DNA from: Lachnospiraceae bacterium
Lineage (GTDB): Bacteria; Bacillota; Clostridia; Lachnospirales; Lachnospiraceae
DNA: 64,000 bases
Direction of reading: 5' to 3'
Assembly (NCBI GenBank): GCA_022845955.1
Contig: AP025576.1
Span: 3,906,001 to 3,970,000 of the forward strand
The notes below the pieces were generated by a model. The model saw only the letters and a program-made list of their open reading frames with translations. It was not told where the DNA came from and ran no database searches. Of this stretch, positions 29,303 to 41,014 are shown piece after piece. Numbering within the stretch: the first letter of the stretch is position 1; each line of letters opens with the position of its first letter. The translations under genes were made by a program, and so were the position numbers.

Positions 29303-32300
29303 TTATGCCTGTATCTGATCCAGTATATAAGGATCCTTTATCCTGGCATCCTGTGCAAACAATATAATTTTGGACATAATTTCCGCTGTCTTGGGGTCCT
29401 CGTCCAGAAAGGGAAGGAACAGCCTTCCCCTGCTCTGGGAATGGACGGGCAGTACCTGAATCTGATGCCCTCCCTTACGGTGGATCACACCGCTTCCCAA
29501 ATGAATGCTGTAGGCAGCCCTGCTGCCCTTTATAAGGGCATGGCTTCCCTCCAGGGTAACATTGGATATATCGAAAAGAGGCAGATTATATTCCACAATC
29601 GCTTTCCTCATTTCCACGGTGGAATGGCTGGTCTCCGGATCCACACCGCCCGCATGGGCCACACTTACCGCCAAATCCACATCCCGCATAACCTCGGAAT
29701 AGACAATGGCAGGAATATCCCTGATTGGAATGCCCTCAAAGGTTTTCCTTTGGGTAAACTCCACCCATTCCAATGCGGGCGCTTCCACTTCACTGGGCGA
29801 AAACCAGTCTGCCTGGGCATAAATATGGGCGATAATATTCTCTTTATAATAGATTTTCTGAAGCCCTTCCTCATAATCCGCCACCCAGCGCCTGGATTTC
29901 AGGCAGGCAGCCGTTTTGGCAGGTTGGATCTGATTCCCGGCAAACATAAGGGAATGGGTTCTGTCCAGTTCCTCCGGAAGTTTTACGTACAGCTCGCGGA
30001 ATACCTGCTTAAAGGGCTGCCTGAGCCCTTCCGCAAACAAAAGCTTCTGGTATTCTTCCCAGCAGCCCAGCTCATAGAGGTCAAACGGGTGGGCCACACG
30101 CAGCATATCTTCTCCCCGGAGGAGCACACGTTCCTTTTCCCAGCCGGTCATGCCATCCTCTCTTATAAAACCGGATACCGGACAATCGGCGGGGCCTGCC
30201 GGGCTATCGCCGATAAATACGAGACTCCGCACCACCGGCGCTATTACCGGATTACACAGAAGCGCCTGCAGTTCCTCATATCGGTAAGCCTCCCGCTCTT
30301 CCATAGCCTGTTCAAACATTTTGACGCATCTGGCATACTGTTCTTTCAGTTTCATGTGGATTTCCTTCAACTGCAGATAGTACGCATTCTTTTTCAGCCT
30401 GGCCGGTACGGTTTTCAGGGGCTTGCCATCTTTTTCAGCCATAATGGACGGTCTACCGTTTTCATCCACATAAAGACACAGGAAAACACCGTCCTCTTCT
30501 TTTTTCTCAAAGAAAACACGATACTCCTTTACCAGTTCCGTTTCCATGGCAAGGGTCAAACGGGTCACATCCGCATAGCCCGCCTTGGTAGCCATATTTT
30601 TCATAGCCACCGACACGGCGAGGGACTCGCTGGCCCGGCGCTGCGCTCCGAACTGCCTGCTTTCCTTCAGGAACCGCTGCAGAAATTCATACCGGCGGGG
30701 CAGCTCGCGTTTCCCCTGCACAGGCACCAGGCCATAGCTCATCAGCAGATCCTTATTCCTTTTTTCCCGGATTGCCTGTTCCAGCGCCTGCGCAGTTACC
30801 CGTCCCAGAGCCGCGTCTGCGTATTTCCTCGCCCGGGCATGCTTGCTTCCGTCGGAGATATATTTGGCGGCATCATACAGTCTGCCGAACCGCTCTTCCC
30901 CCAGCAGGGAATAGGCTTCCTCAAACCAGTTCACATCAAAAGCGCCGTTATTGAGTTCTTCCGGCGTAAGCGGGGTATACCGGGCTATCATTGCTTTCTT
31001 TTTATCGTCGAATCGCTCGTTCATATGGGCCATGAAATAATAGCATCCGCTTTTCAGCCCGGGCCAGCCCAGATATTCCTCTATGATATCCAGCCACTGC
31101 GGCGCATACATGGCTGTTTCGATCATTTTCTGTTCTTTTATTTTCGTCCCCTTCAGCAGTTCCTTCAGCTTTCCGGCATCCTCTCCCTCCAGAGGATAGC
31201 ATATCTGAAGCAGATAGCTCAAGCATTCCTTTTTCCCCGTCCTGCTTCCCGACCAGTAATAGTAGGCAGTCCGATCCAGCTTGTCATTTCCCAGGGCTTT
31301 CAGGATCTCTATCATGCGATCCATACCGTAAATCCGCTTGATAGAAGATATGCTGGAGGAAAACACCGTGGGAAGATCCCCGCGCTTTACTTCCACATCC
31401 AGAATCGTATCGGTAATACGGAAGAAAAACGCCCTTCCCTGTTTTATAAAAGGATTCTCCGGATTCCCTTTTTCTTCCGCCAGTTCCTCCTTTGACAGGT
31501 AAGCGGAAAGTCTGTTTCTATCGTAAGGCTGTAAATGATCGGAAACCAGACGGGACAGATCTTCCAGGCTGGCACGCAGGCCAATCGTTTCAAATGCGGC
31601 CTCGTAAACCGTATCCGCAGGGATAAGGCCCAGCCGGAACGCCAACACATACTCATAAATGGTCAGCAGCGTACGGGAATTCCGGTTATACGAATAGGCA
31701 CTTCCGCTGCCATTGTGGGCATTGTAGTCAAAAAGCTGATCCAGACGGTAAAGGGCAGAGAATCCTTCTTTAAATTCCTGCTCTGTCCTCCATCCCGACA
31801 GAGGACGGATCAGGCCGTTCACGGCAGGAATATCCGTCAGGGCAAATTCCCCGGGATCCGAAACATAATAATAGCGGGTATCTTTCCCTTTTTCATACCA
31901 CAAATCCCTGGCAGGGATCTCTTCCGCAAGCAGGGCGGCCAGTTCCAGGGCGGCCGGTCTCCACTGTGTATCCTCATATATGCTGTTCAGAATGGTAAGA
32001 ACCGTATAGGCACTGCTTCCATATCCCGGCCGTACCCCCTGCTTCTGGGGGATCCGGAATTCCCCGATATTTCCCAAAAGCTTTTTCTGATAGCCCAGCA
32101 GGATTTCCTGATTTTTCACATTTACGCCGCTTCCCGTCCCGTTGTTCCATGCCAGCAGCAGAAGCTTTACCAGATGGGGATCCCCGATATGTTCCTCATA
32201 AAAACGGATCCACAGTTCTTTAAACGGATAACGATCCGCAAAAGGCAGGGAGGTATCGCTGCTGCTCACGACCAGATGATTCCCCAAAAGCATCTCATAA

Positions 32301-34435
32301 CCGTTGGCAGCTTTATACTCCAGTCCTGCATTTTCATCCAGAAACGCATACAGGCTGCGTACGATCTCTTCCAGCTTTCGGATATCCGTCCGGAAAAAGG
32401 CCCGCAGGTTCTCACGGCCTGCCGCCGGCTCCAACAATGCAGGAACCGCATCTTTACGGTACAGGCCATACCCTTCTGTTTCCAATATCCGGCTTGAGGC
32501 GGATTCTCCTGTGATTTCCTCTAAAAGGATCTGTTCCTTATCCGATTTTCCCTCCAGCTTTCCGGCTTCCTCCGCCAGGCTTTTCTGCACAGCTTCCGGC
32601 CTTCCGCTGATCCGGGCCTCTCTCACCAAAGTCAGGCCGCCCTCGCGCATCTCCTCCGAGGAAGAAGAAAGCAGGCGCCTCACCGATTCCTCCAGCCCCT
32701 TATCGCTCTGTTTTTCCAGAAGCTTCAGGACATTTTGTCTGATATCCCCTTTCTTATATTTCAAGAACGCTTCTATCTGCCGGTAATCCCCGTCGGACAG
32801 CTCCAGTCCCTCCGCCAGCCGGAATGCCGTCTTTCTGGTCATCGTTTCCTTATCTGCCAGAAAAGAAAGCAGAAGTTCCTTCTGGTGTTCATTTTCCGGG
32901 CTGTGAAGCAGCAGTTCCACCCATTTCGCCCTGCTTTCATAAGAACCGCTGATATCGATCTCCATCACGTTTCCGGCCGCCTCTTCTATGAGGCCGGAAT
33001 CCCCAAGGGAATAAGCAATTACACACATTCGCTTAATAAGCTGCCCCCTGGTAAGTTCCACCCGGTACCAGGAAAACACACAGGGTGCAAATTCCAGCAC
33101 TTTTTTCTTCATGCTCTCCAAGATATCTTTCAGCACCCCATAGTGGGCAATGGCTTCCCCGCGGCTGTCAAACAGCCAGCCGATGGGAATGGGACGATAC
33201 TGCCTTTCCTCTCCGTTACCGGACTGACGGCCGCCCAGCGCATAACTGACATACCGTTCCGCGCTGCTCAGATAGGTGGGCATAAAAGCCGCGATCATTT
33301 CCGGATCCGATGAGAACTTCATGACTGCCTTTTTGGCCGTGACTCCGGTAAACGCATCCCATTCCAGTGTGCGGTTAAAATAGGACATGGTAAGGATCTG
33401 GTTCCTGGTTCCGTGCTCCAGGAATTCTCCCATCACTCCGATGGCATCCTGCAGTTCATAAAAAGCCAGTGTCCACAGGCCCACGGCAATCCGGATGCTG
33501 TCATTGGAAGCGATATATGCCTGCACTGCCTCCGGATCGCTAAGAGAAGCCTCCATGAGGGTTATCATCTTCTCCGATATCCGATCCGCATTTTCCACAT
33601 CGCAGATACCGGTCCAGGTTGCCACTGCCCTTTTAACGGAGGCAAAACGGATCAGATTATTATCACATACCGCGGCAAAAATTGTCCGGAAAGCCTCCAC
33701 TGTCCCGCAGTCCGCATTTTCACAGACCGCCTGTCTGACCCCTTCCTGAAGCCTGGCGGCAAGCAGGAAATCCGAAAGGAGACGGTGAAGGGACGCACAG
33801 GAGCTTTTTACGATCCCCCTTATCCAGTCCGCCGTGATTACGGCGGTATTGTTATCGCTTAGCAGCACATTTTCAGCCGCCGCTTTTACCGCCTCATCTC
33901 CTCTGTCTATCCTGGCCGCGATCATATCATCCATACACTGCAGGGTAAAACCGTAAGCCGGATTCCTTTTGAAGTCCAGCTTTTCTTCCGACAGCCGGTC
34001 CAGGAGATAATCCTCCAGGCTGCATTCATAAAACTGCAGCACCTTGTAGGCATACAGCAGACGGAATACATGCTTAAGGCTTGGAAAATAAGATTTGGTA
34101 CGAACGGTTCTGCGGTAAATGCTGTGGGAATAGGGAAACTGGTTCAGCTTATCGATAATATAATAAAAATCCCCGGCAAACTCCTTTCCTGCATAAAGCT
34201 CCGTCAGTTTTTTATAGTTTTTCCGCATGAAAGAAGAAAGCGTCAGATATGTCCCCTCACGCAGTTTTTCTTCCGCTTTCTCCAGAAACGGGCCGAATTC
34301 CTGTCTGTACTGCCCGAATTTTTCTATTTCCTCCACCGCTTTTTTCGTTTCGCCGGAGGCAAGGTACAACTTTTTTTTCCATTTTTCCCTGTAGGCTTCC
34401 GACAGCTTCTGCCTGCTTTGATAACTGTATTCCAT
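29303..34435 (-). CDS. Giant DUF4132/DUF5724-type protein of unknown function
   Basis: A 1710-aa protein without signal peptide or membrane segments. The first half is helical and looks like degenerate HEAT/ARM repeats (for example EEMREGGLTLVREARISG). The last 300 residues resemble the conserved C-terminal domain of DUF4132/MolR-type proteins (RDVDLAVSVAHAGGVDPETS, LGSGVIHRKGGHQI). I see no nuclease, protease or NTPase motif. It starts at ATG 34435 with GGAGAG upstream. It is the second gene of an operon with a 140-aa protein upstream and two DNA helicases downstream. A scaffold or sensor for the helicases is a guess; the family assignment is moderate. Confidence 0.7.
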   Translation of the reverse strand: MEYSYQSRQKLSEAYREKWKKKLYLASGETKKAVEEIEKFGQYRQEFGPFLEKAEEKLREGTYLTLSSFMRKNYKKLTELYAGKEFAGDFYYIIDKLNQFPYSHSIYRRTVRTKSYFPSLKHVFRLLYAYKVLQFYECSLEDYLLDRLSEEKLDFKRNPAYGFTLQCMDDMIAARIDRGDEAVKAAAENVLLSDNNTAVITADWIRGIVKSSCASLHRLLSDFLLAARLQEGVRQAVCENADCGTVEAFRTIFAAVCDNNLIRFASVKRAVATWTGICDVENADRISEKMITLMEASLSDPEAVQAYIASNDSIRIAVGLWTLAFYELQDAIGVMGEFLEHGTRNQILTMSYFNRTLEWDAFTGVTAKKAVMKFSSDPEMIAAFMPTYLSSAERYVSYALGGRQSGNGEERQYRPIPIGWLFDSRGEAIAHYGVLKDILESMKKKVLEFAPCVFSWYRVELTRGQLIKRMCVIAYSLGDSGLIEEAAGNVMEIDISGSYESRAKWVELLLHSPENEHQKELLLSFLADKETMTRKTAFRLAEGLELSDGDYRQIEAFLKYKKGDIRQNVLKLLEKQSDKGLEESVRRLLSSSSEEMREGGLTLVREARISGRPEAVQKSLAEEAGKLEGKSDKEQILLEEITGESASSRILETEGYGLYRKDAVPALLEPAAGRENLRAFFRTDIRKLEEIVRSLYAFLDENAGLEYKAANGYEMLLGNHLVVSSSDTSLPFADRYPFKELWIRFYEEHIGDPHLVKLLLLAWNNGTGSGVNVKNQEILLGYQKKLLGNIGEFRIPQKQGVRPGYGSSAYTVLTILNSIYEDTQWRPAALELAALLAEEIPARDLWYEKGKDTRYYYVSDPGEFALTDIPAVNGLIRPLSGWRTEQEFKEGFSALYRLDQLFDYNAHNGSGSAYSYNRNSRTLLTIYEYVLAFRLGLIPADTVYEAAFETIGLRASLEDLSRLVSDHLQPYDRNRLSAYLSKEELAEEKGNPENPFIKQGRAFFFRITDTILDVEVKRGDLPTVFSSSISSIKRIYGMDRMIEILKALGNDKLDRTAYYYWSGSRTGKKECLSYLLQICYPLEGEDAGKLKELLKGTKIKEQKMIETAMYAPQWLDIIEEYLGWPGLKSGCYYFMAHMNERFDDKKKAMIARYTPLTPEELNNGAFDVNWFEEAYSLLGEERFGRLYDAAKYISDGSKHARARKYADAALGRVTAQALEQAIREKRNKDLLMSYGLVPVQGKRELPRRYEFLQRFLKESRQFGAQRRASESLAVSVAMKNMATKAGYADVTRLTLAMETELVKEYRVFFEKKEEDGVFLCLYVDENGRPSIMAEKDGKPLKTVPARLKKNAYYLQLKEIHMKLKEQYARCVKMFEQAMEEREAYRYEELQALLCNPVIAPVVRSLVFIGDSPAGPADCPVSGFIREDGMTGWEKERVLLRGEDMLRVAHPFDLYELGCWEEYQKLLFAEGLRQPFKQVFRELYVKLPEELDRTHSLMFAGNQIQPAKTAACLKSRRWVADYEEGLQKIYYKENIIAHIYAQADWFSPSEVEAPALEWVEFTQRKTFEGIPIRDIPAIVYSEVMRDVDLAVSVAHAGGVDPETSHSTVEMRKAIVEYNLPLFDISNVTLEGSHALIKGSRAAYSIHLGSGVIHRKGGHQIQVLPVHSQSRGRLFLPFLDEDPKTAEIMSKIILFAQDARIKDPYILDQIQA

Positions 34436-35912: not shown

Positions 35913-37796
35913 TTAGTTATCTGCACAGGAGGGTTTTTCCGGACATAGCGGTTTTAGCGGACCACCGCATGAACTATTCCTGCAGCAGGACGGTTTGGGG
36001 CAGCATGGTTCCGGCGGACACGGCTTAGTTGTACATATGGGCCTTGGTTTGCGGGTACGTTTCGGCGAACATGGCGGTTCCGGCGGGCACGGCGGCTTCG
36101 GCGGACACGGCGGTTCCGGCGGACACGGCGGCTTCGGCGGACACGGCGGTTCCGGTGGGCACGGCGGCTTCGGCGGGTACGGCGGCTTCGGCGGACATGG
36201 AGGTTCCGGCGGACACGGCGGTTCCGGCGGACACGGCGGCTTCGGCGGACATGGCGGCTTCGGCGGACACGGCGGTTCCGGTGGGCACGGCGGCTTCGGC
36301 GGACATGGAGGTTCCGGCGGACATGGCGGTTCCGGCGGATATGGTGGGTATGGCGGTTCCGGCGGATACGGCGGCCTGGGCGGATATGGCGGATATGGCG
36401 GTTCCGGCGGATACGGCGGCCTGGGCGGGTATGGCGGGTATGGCGGTTCCGGCGGATACGGCGGATACGGCGGCCTGGGCGGATATGGCGGGTATGGCGG
36501 TTCCGGCGGGTATGGCGGGTATGGCGGATATGGCCACACTGGCGGATAAACACAGCATGGGGGCATCTGCCAGCCACAGTTAATAAACCCCTGCATACCC
36601 AAGTTATTATTATTATTGTTATTATTGTTATTATTGTTGTTATTATTATTGTTATTTATCTGTATCCCGGACTGTACCGTACATCCGCCGTCCTTTTCCT
36701 TAATACCCGCAGACAGGCACACACACATAGAAGCGTTAACCTCTATCGTTTCATCCTGAAGAGATGAACCGATTGGCTGATAGTTGGGTGAACTGACAGG
36801 CCTCATCGTGATTACCCGGGTTATTGTTGCTGTAAATGCGGCCTCTACGGTAAAGCATATACAAGTACGGGCCGCCCGCACCGCTATATAAAATTCCTGT
36901 CCGATAACAGGCGATGTTATTACATTTCCGCAAAAATCCATAAAGGAAGCGGCAAAACCATCCTGACATACGCACAGAGGACGGACTGTAATGACCGGCT
37001 GGCCCGTTAAATTGGACTGAAGCCGGAACGGCCCTATCAGGAGCCTTCCGCACAGGGAACGCACTTCATCCGGGCAGCCGCTGAATACAAGATAGGACTC
37101 ATTGACAGCGCCCGGAATGGTACCGGCATTACAACACTCCACAGGGGAATCCTTGCAGCAGCACATAGTGTTTGCCGCTGTCGGCGGCAAAGGATCGGCA
37201 AAAGAATCTGCGAAGTCCCCTGCCATCTGCAGAAGCTTCAGCACGGTTGCCCGAAGCCTTTCCGACTTCGGATGCGTTTCTCCTGATCCGCAGTCCAGAA
37301 AAAAGACTTCGTCCTCGGCAATCTGTCCCAAAAGGACCCACAGGGCAACCTGCACCGCCGCATAGGCATCGTTGTCATCCAGCACCGGGCTGGATGTATA
37401 GTCCGTTCCGGTTAGCTGAAAGGTTTCTCCGGCACTCACCGCAGGATACCCGTTGGCAAGTATCCAGGCAAGCATCTGTTTCTGCCTTTCCGTATCCGCC
37501 GGAAATATTGTTTCAAAGGGCGCGCTCTCATAGGGAACATCATTATAAGGGCCGTCCGCAAATTTATCAAGACAATAGGCCATTCTCGTTACTCCGTTTT
37601 GTGTCAGGCGGAATTGAAATATATTATTATGATCCGCTCTGTCCAGCCGGTATCTTGATTCCGAAGTATAAGGCAGGGCACAATAATTGCGGACCTGCGC
37701 ATCCCCGGTAGCCGTACCGGTCAGATCCGTACCGGAATAAATAACAAAGGGACGGGACACCGGAACAACGGCTTCTAAATTATTCTTTTGCATCAT
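35913..37796 (-). CDS. Thioester-domain protein with poly-Asn linker and Pro-rich Cys repeats
   Basis: A 627-aa protein. Residues 60-165 look like a thioester (TQxA) domain: Cys75 in MAYCLDKF and Gln149 in AVQVALWVL correspond to the residues that form an internal Cys-Gln thioester in Gram-positive adhesins. A Cys-rich middle domain (about 205-375) follows, then 18 consecutive Asn (381-398), and about 200 residues of PPxPP repeats, first PPYPPEPP/PPYPPRPP, then PPCPPEPP/PPCPPKPP. There is no signal peptide, no LPxTG motif and no membrane anchor, which is odd for a surface adhesin. Cysteine-rich Pro repeats and lack of signal suggest a spore-surface protein, but this is inference. Start is ATG 37796 after AGGAG. 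Confidence 0.75.
   Translation of the reverse strand: MMQKNNLEAVVPVSRPFVIYSGTDLTGTATGDAQVRNYCALPYTSESRYRLDRADHNNIFQFRLTQNGVTRMAYCLDKFADGPYNDVPYESAPFETIFPADTERQKQMLAWILANGYPAVSAGETFQLTGTDYTSSPVLDDNDAYAAVQVALWVLLGQIAEDEVFFLDCGSGETHPKSERLRATVLKLLQMAGDFADSFADPLPPTAANTMCCCKDSPVECCNAGTIPGAVNESYLVFSGCPDEVRSLCGRLLIGPFRLQSNLTGQPVITVRPLCVCQDGFAASFMDFCGNVITSPVIGQEFYIAVRAARTCICFTVEAAFTATITRVITMRPVSSPNYQPIGSSLQDETIEVNASMCVCLSAGIKEKDGGCTVQSGIQINNNNNNNNNNNNNNNNNNLGMQGFINCGWQMPPCCVYPPVWPYPPYPPYPPEPPYPPYPPRPPYPPYPPEPPYPPYPPRPPYPPEPPYPPYPPRPPYPPEPPYPPYPPEPPCPPEPPCPPKPPCPPEPPCPPKPPCPPKPPCPPEPPCPPEPPCPPKPPYPPKPPCPPEPPCPPKPPCPPEPPCPPKPPCPPEPPCSPKRTRKPRPICTTKPCPPEPCCPKPSCCRNSSCGGPLKPLCPEKPSCADN
36060..36540. repeat. 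Coding minisatellite (9/18-bp units)
   Basis: Tandem imperfect units such as GGCGGTTCCGGCGGACAC encode PPEPPCPP-type repeats on the minus strand. Units with Tyr lie toward the middle of the protein and units with Cys toward its end. Spacer-free and in frame, so this is not a CRISPR array. Such DNA is prone to slip-strand length change. Confidence 0.9.
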
Positions 37797-38533: not shown

Positions 38534-40525
38534 CTATTTCTGCACCCGGAACTGTACAGGGGTCATACCATAGGATTTTTTAAACAGTCTGTTAAAATGC
38601 TCCACACTTTCATATCCCACATCTTCGGCAATCGATTCCACCGAATGCCCCGACTCCTTTAAAAGCATCCTTGCTTTTCTCATTCTGGCTTCTCTAACCA
38701 CATCCTGAAAATTCATACCTGTCTTGTCTTTGATATATTTTGAAATATAAGGCCTGGAAAGATTGAAGTTTTCCGACAGATTTTCCAGGGTCACCTCTGC
38801 ATAATGTCCATTAATATATTTGATAATATCCACGATTCGTTCCTCCCTGCCTTCCCGAAGATTTTCGCTCTCCGCCAGTTTATTGCCTGCTGAAACAAGA
38901 GCGGCCACGGAGCTTTTAATAATATCCTCATCAATACCCACGCCCCAATAGTTCTTTCCCTTACAGCTAATTCCCACATAGGCCGCTGCTTTGGAGGAAG
39001 AACCGCTGGAAATCGCATGTTCCTCATAAACGGTGAGTTCATAGCTTATGCCGAAATACATTTTTACCGCATTGCTGACCGCATCGAGACGGCCGTTTCC
39101 TGAAGCTTCTATCACTCTTCTCTCTTTTCCCTGTTCAATCGTCACCTGTGCGGTAATCCCGTCTTCCTGGCGGAAATGACATTCCGGGATATGAAAAATC
39201 GAGCGGGGAGTGATATAATTTTCCTCAAAGATCTGATAAATATCCGCCGGTGTCAGTTCCTGATGTCTCTTATCGGATACTCCTTTCACCAGATAGCCTA
39301 CTTCTTCTTTCATCCCGTCAGGTATGGAAAAACCAAAATTCTGCTTCAGGATAAAAGCGATTCCTCCCTTTCCTGACTGGCTGTTAATACGGATGACGTC
39401 AGATTCATATTCCCTTCCCACATCCTTTGGATCCACCGGCAGATAAGGCACCGTCCATTTACTGCCGCTCTTTCCTTCTTTCCACCATGTCATTCCTTTG
39501 GAAATCGCGTCCTGATGGGAACCGGAGAACGCAGTGAATACCAGGTCTCCGGCATAAGGTGTTCTCTCGTATACCTTCATACCGGTCAGAAGCTCATAAC
39601 TTTCCCTTATTTCCATAATACGGCTGAAATCCAGTCCTGCTTCCACGCCGTGGCACATCATGTTCATAGCCAACGTAACCAGATCCACATTACCCGTTCT
39701 TTCCCCATTTCCGAAAAGAGTCCCTTCCACTCTGTCCGCTCCCGCAAGGATACCGAATTCCGCATCGCTTATCCCGCAGCCCCTGTCATTATGGGGATGT
39801 ACGCTTAAAACCACACCGTCCCTGTACTTCAGGTTTTTGTGAATATATTCCACCTGACAGGCAAATACATGAGGCATGGCAACCTGTACGGTAGTGGGAA
39901 TGTTAATGACTACCTTGTGCTTTTTATCCGGCTTCCATACATCCAGGACCGCATTACATACCTCCACAGCATAATCCACTTCCGTTCCCGGAAAACTCTC
40001 CGGACTGTATTCAAAGGTAAAACTGCCTTCCGTTTCCTCCGCCAGCTTTTTCAAAAGCGCCGCTCCGTCCACCGCCAGCTGCTTCACCTCATCCCTGCTT
40101 TTTTTGAAAACCTGCTCCCGCTGCGCCACCGATGTGGAATTGTACAGATGAACGATCGCATGGGGCGCACCCTTTACGGCTTCAAATGTTTTTCTTATGA
40201 TATGTTCTCTGGCCTGGGTAAGCACCTGGATCGTCACATCCTCCGGGATCATATCCCTTTCGATTAACGCCCTTATAAAAGCGTACTCCGTGTCGGATGC
40301 GGCAGGAAATCCCACCTCGATTTCTTTAAAACCGATTTTGACAAGCATTTTAAAAAACTCCAGCTTTTCTTCCAGTCCCATTGGTTCAATGAGTGCCTGG
40401 TTCCCATCCCGCAAATCCACACTGCACCAAACCGGCGCTTTTTCAATCGTATCCTTTTTCACCCAATCATATGTCACCACCGGCGGCATAAAATAAGATC
40501 TTCCATACTTTTCTGCTGCTTTCAC
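38534..40525 (-). CDS. leuA: 2-isopropylmalate synthase fused to an AraC-type DNA-binding domain
   Basis: A 663-aa protein. Residues 1-440 are the 2-isopropylmalate synthase TIM barrel, making the first leucine intermediate from acetyl-CoA and 2-ketoisovalerate: RDGNQ (39-43), the metal-binding HPH (243-245) and GNGERTGN (272-279). Residues 444-552 are the leucine-binding regulatory domain of the long LeuA subgroup, which normally ends the protein. Here residues 562-663 add an AraC/XylS domain with two HTHs ([42 protein letters not shown]). The reading frame is continuous with no stop or shift. Start is GTG 40525, with AGGAGG eight bases upstream, after a Leu T-box. The enzyme may double as a leucine-responsive transcription factor; I infer this from the fusion only. 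Confidence 0.93.
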
Positions 40526-40554: not shown

Positions 40555-40865
40555 CAAAAAAAGTCTCTATAAAAATGACTTTTCTGTAATCCGGTCATTT
40601 TTATAGAGACGCAAATTCACCTTCGCGCGGTACCACTCTATTTCATGGCGCAACACCATGCACTCGTCAGCACTAACATGCCTTTCCCCTTTCTACGGCG
40701 GGTGTTCCGTCTGCGCCTACACAACCCTGCGGTCTTCAGCCAGCTGCTCCAAGGTCAGTTCACGATCCGCTTCAGACTGCCTTGCACCACCCGGCAGTTC
40801 TCTGTTTTCCAGCTTTCAGCTACTACTCCTCTTCCTTGCATTTGCTTTCTTATTCAATTTTCTAA
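40555..40865 (-). ncRNA. T-box riboswitch, Leu specifier
   Basis: On the minus strand the leader has an AGTA-type bulge region, the Stem I distal motif GGGTGGTGCAAGGC, the conserved T-box AGTGGTACCGCG (40626-40637) and a strong terminator (GTCTCTATAAAAATGAC pairing at 40563-40610, then a T run). The likely specifier is CUG (40758-40756) in GAACUGACC, a leucine codon followed by A as usual. Uncharged tRNA-Leu should prevent termination and switch on leuA-araC. The 5' boundary is approximate. Confidence 0.92.
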
Positions 40866-40894
40866 ATAGTAACATAGATTTCGAGTGACTACAA
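40866..40894 (-). promoter_or_regulatory. Likely promoter of the T-box leader
   Basis: Minus-strand TTGTAG, 17 bp, TACTAT, just upstream of the riboswitch. A moderate match. Confidence 0.45.
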
Positions 40895-41014
40895 GGTGCA
40901 ATTTTAATCAATTTGATTGATTTATTTTATGCTGTAACAGCCAGGACTTGTCTGAACCGTTACGGCATCCGGTCAATGAAATTGCCGGACATTATACCGC
41001 CACATTTTCCGCAG

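Follow-up and report, generated by a model that had tools for sequence, protein, structure and literature searches.

The leuA-araC locus

The window analyzed here is a stretch of 64,000 nucleotides from the genome of a Lachnospiraceae bacterium (GenBank assembly GCA_022845955.1, contig AP025576.1). It carries one unbroken minus-strand frame that encodes a 2-isopropylmalate synthase (LeuA) continuing into an AraC-type double helix-turn-helix (HTH) domain; the plus-strand reading of the same interval contains stops. The gene, its domains, and the elements in front of it are collected in Table 1.

Table 1. Features of the leuA-araC locus (positions within the window)
Feature	Positions	Strand	Evidence
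leuA-araC fusion gene (663 codons, GTG start)	38534..40525	-	Translation, Pfam, NCBIfam
HMGL-like catalytic domain, aa 32-308 (RDGNQ, HPHNDRG, GERTGN)	39602..40432	-	Pfam, motif search
IPMS_D2 post-catalytic domain, aa 327-394	39344..39547	-	Pfam
LeuA_dimer allosteric (leucine) domain, aa 423-550	38876..39259	-	Pfam
Linker, aa 551-561	38843..38875	-	Motif spacing
AraC-type double helix-turn-helix, aa 562-663 (seven predicted helices)	38537..38842	-	Pfam, PDB matches, AlphaFold2
T-box leader between promoter and gene, probable leucine specifier codon CUG	40602..40845	-	Rfam, specifier pattern
-10 hexamer TACTAT of the extended -10 (TGTTACTAT), 22 bp from operator end	40866..40871	-	Promoter inspection
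Operator ATAAAATAAATCAATCAAATTGATTAAAATTGCACCT, which the fused HTH is predicted to bind	40894..40930	-	Upstream alignment, profile, genome scan

All five Pfam domains scored above their curated cut-offs, among them LeuA_dimer (PF08502, 95.7 bits vs. 24.9), HTH_18 (PF12833, residues 583-660), and HTH_AraC (PF00165, residues 628-660). The best NCBIfam match was the 2-isopropylmalate synthase model PRK03739.1, with 788.5 bits against a cut-off of 455. The C-terminus matched AraC-family PDB chains (MarA, SoxS, Rob, and AraC), and AlphaFold2 placed seven helices over residues 562-661, with block pLDDT values of 81-89 for residues 561-660. The model had a pTM of 0.52 and a poor hinge region (residues 320-387), which makes it no guide to domain placement. 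The original prediction described an uninterrupted 663-codon LeuA with a complete two-HTH AraC domain. Translation, Pfam, NCBIfam, and AlphaFold2 all bear this out, and no stop or frameshift was found inside the frame.

Both halves of the protein are maintained among 173 distinct fused proteins. On the enzyme side, RDGNQ and GERTGN were present in all of them and HPHNDRG in 169; we take these to be the conserved motifs of the LeuA catalytic domain. The fused protein was the sole LeuA_dimer protein in 23 of 30 carriers (a count of proteins bearing that domain, not of synthases lacking it), and leuB was present in all 30. Judging from these sequence features, the fused protein looks like a working enzyme. 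On the DNA-binding side, the signature GY...E.F.R.F was found in 172 proteins and Y[LIV]SK[YF]I in 168, and the WGxG and HTH motifs were 66 residues apart in 166 of the 170 proteins in which both were found. The fused HTH is strongly conserved.

The window's genome is one of the seven carriers, out of the 30, with an additional unfused LeuA. This second copy is a 592-codon open frame at 609 kb, about 50% identical and without an operator; by eye, it lies behind a glmM-like gene (L099, 8971-10713). An operon or neighborhood logic was considered for the fused gene and rejected: the commonest neighbor cluster occurred in 10 loci vs. 59 for leuA itself, so fused leuA is treated as a stand-alone gene.

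Two other minus-strand genes of the window were also noted. Positions 35913-37796 encode a 627-aa protein, probably a surface protein, with a thioester (TED) domain, an asparagine run, and a long Pro-Pro-Tyr/Cys-Pro repeat. Positions 29303-34435 encode a 1710-aa protein made of DUF5724, DUF4132, and DUF7737.

Distribution of the fusion

A protein similarity search found the full-length fusion in 89 of 397 sampled genomes of the window's family, counted from a match table in which the lowest full-length fusion scored 945 bits and the matches listed reached down to about 803 bits. In a class-level sample, 13 of 391 genomes had the fusion, three of them outside the family (G519, G654, and G656). 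A scan of named genomes gave at least 80 loci, titled mostly Lachnospiraceae; carriers among the loci listed include Eisenbergiella, Acetatifactor, Roseburia, Coprococcus comes, Mediterraneibacter massiliensis, and Merdimonas faecis. Full-length homologues at 61-94% identity occur in independent assemblies, and the fusion is therefore not a product of chance or a sequencing artefact. The search of related genomes for the same fusion thus returned many carriers with a linker of nearly constant length, and the HTH residues, whose mutation would have spoken against DNA binding, are conserved across the fused proteins. No description of a LeuA-AraC fusion was found in the open-access literature, a scope that most subscription papers fall outside.

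A conserved operator upstream of fused leuA

Upstream of leuA, the carriers share a conserved 37-bp block with the consensus TTAAAATAnATCAAnnAAAnTGATTAAATTTnnCnCT. A profile built from 57 sites, with scores above zero taken as positive, detected this operator at 98 of 103 fused leuA genes; the 57 profile-building sites are among these 98. In 167 upstream regions, the best of five shuffles never rose above the threshold. Out of sample, at the same threshold and with no new shuffles, the operator was found at 55 of 65 further fused genes, the other 10 scoring at or below the threshold. It was missing from 61 of 64 unfused leuA genes (60 orthologues above 60% identity and four paralogues). These counts leave out L050 and L028, with less than 300 nt upstream, as well as repeats sharing the first 300 residues and length.

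Three unfused genes are exceptions. At L104 (genome G111) and L106 (G128), leuA is followed directly by a separate ORF for the HTH, and the operator is kept; these loci are either natural splits of the fusion or assembly frameshifts. At L244, a fused gene is cut by the contig end and its operator scores. The operator table counts L244 among the unfused genes, whereas the tree described below treats it, like L104 and L106, as HTH-bearing.

Five of the 103 fused genes have no scoring operator, and four of these five have no broken HTH. L217 and L242 show HTH scores near the median, and L238 and L040 are among the eight lowest; half-site-like remnants of the operator were seen by eye at L040, L217, and L242. 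The fifth, L240, has a T-box core, no operator, decayed HTH recognition residues, and the lowest HTH score (120 bits vs. a median of 185). HTH and operator scores had a rank correlation of 0.40 (n = 103), a value that is uncorrected for ancestry and partly circular, the HTH score model having been built on operator-bearing genes. In the variant L025, the operator can be read as a pair of direct repeats, TTAAAWWWAATCAW, with a spacing of 23 bp, an arrangement that would suit two AraC-type HTHs.

Promoter layout

The distance from the operator end to the -10 hexamer was 22±1 bp in 88 of 98 genes and exactly 22 bp in 72, and in shuffled sequence it spreads widely. The -10 had a TG extension in 90 of 97 operator-bearing fused promoters. 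None of these 97 had a perfect TTGACA -35, compared with 28 of 47 unfused T-box promoters, and a same-width scan for TTGACA found it in 0 of 76 fused genes. AraC-type activators occupy this place, just upstream of the -35. Thus, the fixed spacing, the extended -10, and the lack of a consensus -35 make a layout that suits an activator, and from this promoter geometry activation is probable rather than repression.

Among fused genes that have no T-box core, 38 of 71 carry a second operator copy downstream of the first (0.6% in shuffles), compared with 1 of 22 with a core; this count leaves out five of the 98 operator-bearing genes, in which the sequence available behind the operator was too short. 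The commonest spacings between the two copies are 73-75 bp and 63 bp. The second copy suggests that a repressing or looping arm has been added, and the distances give a hint of helical phasing, by a clustering statistic that ignores shared ancestry.

The leucine T-box

The window's T-box matched Rfam family RF00230 with 99.2 bits vs. 93, and its CTG specifier was read by pattern. For the wider comparison, T-boxes were counted by an 11-base core pattern. The core was found at 23 of 103 fused genes (80 have none) vs. 48 of 60 unfused orthologues, which most often have a leucine T-box in front of them. Leucine codons stood at 63 of 71 specifier positions. In two samples, Rfam at the gathering score gave the same picture as the core pattern (3 of 20 fused and 17 of 20 unfused). 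Elsewhere it was stricter, finding 4 of 9 core-bearing loci in one set and missing the core-bearing L026 and L027 in another, and T-box counts by Rfam alone would be lower. The best reading of these sequences is that the fused protein often stands in for the leucine T-box. A rigid replacement was rejected: although far fewer fused genes have a core, the association between HTH and T-box was not significant in the independent-pair test (median p = 0.25), and in the window the T-box coexists with the fusion. As a separate observation, a Clostridiales-1 RNA match (RF01699) stands beside the T-box before unfused leuA at L255 (2458-2616 and 2663-2914).

Joint loss of the HTH and the operator

In a tree of 168 LeuA proteins built with FastTree, the HTH state changes 8 times (vs. 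a mean of 50 for shuffled labels), and 7 changes are forced by supported branches. This history reads as one gain followed by six or seven losses, and the ancestor that gained the HTH was probably T-box-bearing. With 200 random pairings, the operator moved with the HTH in 6.9 of 7 independent pairs on average, in the opposite direction in 0, and showed no difference in 0.1 (median p = 0.0156, range 0.0156-0.0625, resting on 7 events). Within the window's own genus, G002 and G012 have neither HTH nor operator and have kept the T-box core.

Targets of the predicted regulator

Allowing up to three mismatches, the operator core has one match in the window's 7.29-Mb genome, at the fused leuA promoter; this is also its one match in the window, where none is expected. 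Across 40 genomes, allowing up to two mismatches, there were 26 matches, all before branched-chain amino acid genes and 24 of them before fused leuA. The reversed pattern had no match in the 40 genomes, and the operator had none at this threshold in the eight of them that are fusion-free. Among the 32 fusion-bearing genomes, eight had no match either, and the search can miss weaker targets.

The remaining two matches lie before an acetolactate synthase gene (G240) and before leuB (G390). The G240 site (L144, 1500-1536) is 22 bp from a TATAAT, and by eye the leader behind it looks T-box-like. The G390 site (L145, 1500-1536) precedes leuB and a gene that looks ilvD-like by eye. It is possibly a recent widening of the regulon. 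When 1.5 kb upstream of 30 leuB loci was scanned, G390 gave a clear site (score 31.8) and G311 a marginal one (1.5, just above zero). This gene-by-gene scan covered leuB; leuC, leuD, ilvC, ilvD, and most acetolactate synthase promoters lay outside it. A pathway-wide regulon was rejected on the basis of one clear and one marginal site at 30 leuB loci and the single site in the window's genome.

The original prediction saw the enzyme as the regulator of its own pathway. Regulation of its own gene is strongly supported by comparative genomics, through the co-occurrence and joint loss of operator and HTH, and the fused LeuA very probably controls its own gene. The pathway-wide part of the claim looks too wide, with one site in the window's genome.

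Discussion

Taken as a whole, the most convincing explanation, and one that we consider likely, is that the fused protein is a trigger enzyme: a 2-isopropylmalate synthase that would also be the transcription factor of its own gene, leucine-gated and activating. Sequence and co-evolution support both roles. The HTH pair of a LeuA dimer would bind the tandem operator just upstream of the leuA promoter, at about -71 to -35, and would recruit RNA polymerase to a promoter with an extended -10 and without a consensus -35. Once bound in the LeuA_dimer domain, the family's feedback-inhibition site, leucine would most likely release or re-orient the HTHs. With a single ligand site, catalysis and transcription would shut down together. 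The second operator copy, found in about half of the T-box-less carriers, is probably a negative arm acting by looping or as a roadblock. In the window, the protein layer would work in series with the leucine T-box; most other carriers show no T-box core, and there the protein switch seems to act on its own.

That leucine gates the HTH is probable, given the intact LeuA_dimer domain. Leucine binds to Mycobacterium tuberculosis LeuA in pockets at the dimer interface of its regulatory domain (PMC11057210), and the exchange Tyr410Phe makes the enzyme leucine-insensitive (PMC10464499). Tyr361 of the fusion aligns with this Tyr410 in a sequence alignment and is invariant in 35 fused proteins. A more detailed version can be offered tentatively, at somewhat less than even chances: leucine in the allosteric pocket would inhibit catalysis and move the HTHs from the activating upstream operator to a repressing configuration with the second operator, about seven helical turns downstream, and this circuit would have replaced the leucine T-box across much of the carrier Lachnospiraceae.

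Among the other explanations, it is practically out of the question that the fusion is an artefact of sequencing or assembly, or that two genes fused by accident and are now decaying. We found no point in its support, and it is already refuted by the full-length homologues, the 89 carriers among 397 family genomes, and HTH motifs that are intact in nearly all of the 173 distinct fused proteins; the HTH label also clusters on the LeuA tree. It is very unlikely, too, that a separate stand-alone regulator binds the operator while the fused HTH does something else or nothing. The window's genome (G000) does have many other AraC-type proteins, by further HTH matches. However, almost all independent pairs show the operator and the HTH changing in the same direction. 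The operator also persists at the loci with a split-off HTH and is gone in L240, where the HTH decayed, and the HTH is strongly conserved.

Less clear-cut are the sign of control and the nature of the ligand. The fused HTH could be an autorepressor with leucine as its co-repressor, the protein obstructing the polymerase from sites next to the -35 region and beyond the start. Biosynthetic genes are usually repressed by their end product, and the downstream copy in over half of the fused genes without a T-box core would fit an autorepressor. Against this, the near-universal copy is the one upstream of the -35 position, at a fixed spacing and in the layout of an activator, and T-box-bearing genes nearly all have this upstream copy alone; we therefore regard autorepression as unlikely. 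We judge it similarly improbable that the same architecture is gated by a substrate or product (ketoisovalerate, acetyl-CoA, or 2-isopropylmalate) or by enzyme concentration alone. 2-isopropylmalate is the co-activator of the yeast regulator Leu3, and genes with a T-box already sense leucine status by way of tRNA. However, the HTH is joined to the leucine-binding domain by a linker of nearly constant length, and the invariant Tyr361 aligns with the M. tuberculosis residue whose change to Phe removes leucine sensitivity. The leucine-gated activator stays the preferred reading.

PutA, BirA, and NadR are trigger enzymes with ribbon-helix-helix (RHH), winged-helix, or other HTH domains. Like them, the fusion joins a metabolic enzyme and a DNA-binding domain in one polypeptide and would couple a metabolite level to transcription; unlike them, it has an AraC double HTH on the committed enzyme of an amino acid pathway, and its predicted target is almost only its own gene. 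M. tuberculosis LeuA (PDB 1SR9 and 3FIG), the best PDB match by sequence and fold, has the same catalytic, linker, and leucine-regulatory domains, but it is 644 residues long, the alignment ends with the regulatory domain, and it has no HTH. AraC itself binds as a double-HTH dimer to tandem sites by the araBAD -35, with a further looping site, and senses arabinose via a cupin domain. The fusion resembles this arrangement in its double-HTH dimer, the tandem sites just upstream of the -35 position, and a further site that could loop, whereas its sensing module would be a working enzyme and its extra site is downstream of the promoter and closer. The leucine T-box, unlike the fusion, is an RNA element that reads uncharged tRNA. 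Yeast Leu3 likewise links a metabolite of the LeuA pathway to leucine-gene transcription, but as a separate protein that senses the LeuA product and is not fused to the enzyme.

If this reading is true, common gut bacteria would have an amino acid pathway whose committed enzyme doubles as the transcription factor for the gene encoding it, and a single leucine pocket would serve both kinds of feedback. The carriers and their relatives would document how an RNA switch was displaced by a protein switch in nature, and the repeated losses and the two splits would serve as ready-made tests. It would also provide a compact, possibly leucine-sensing promoter for bench study.
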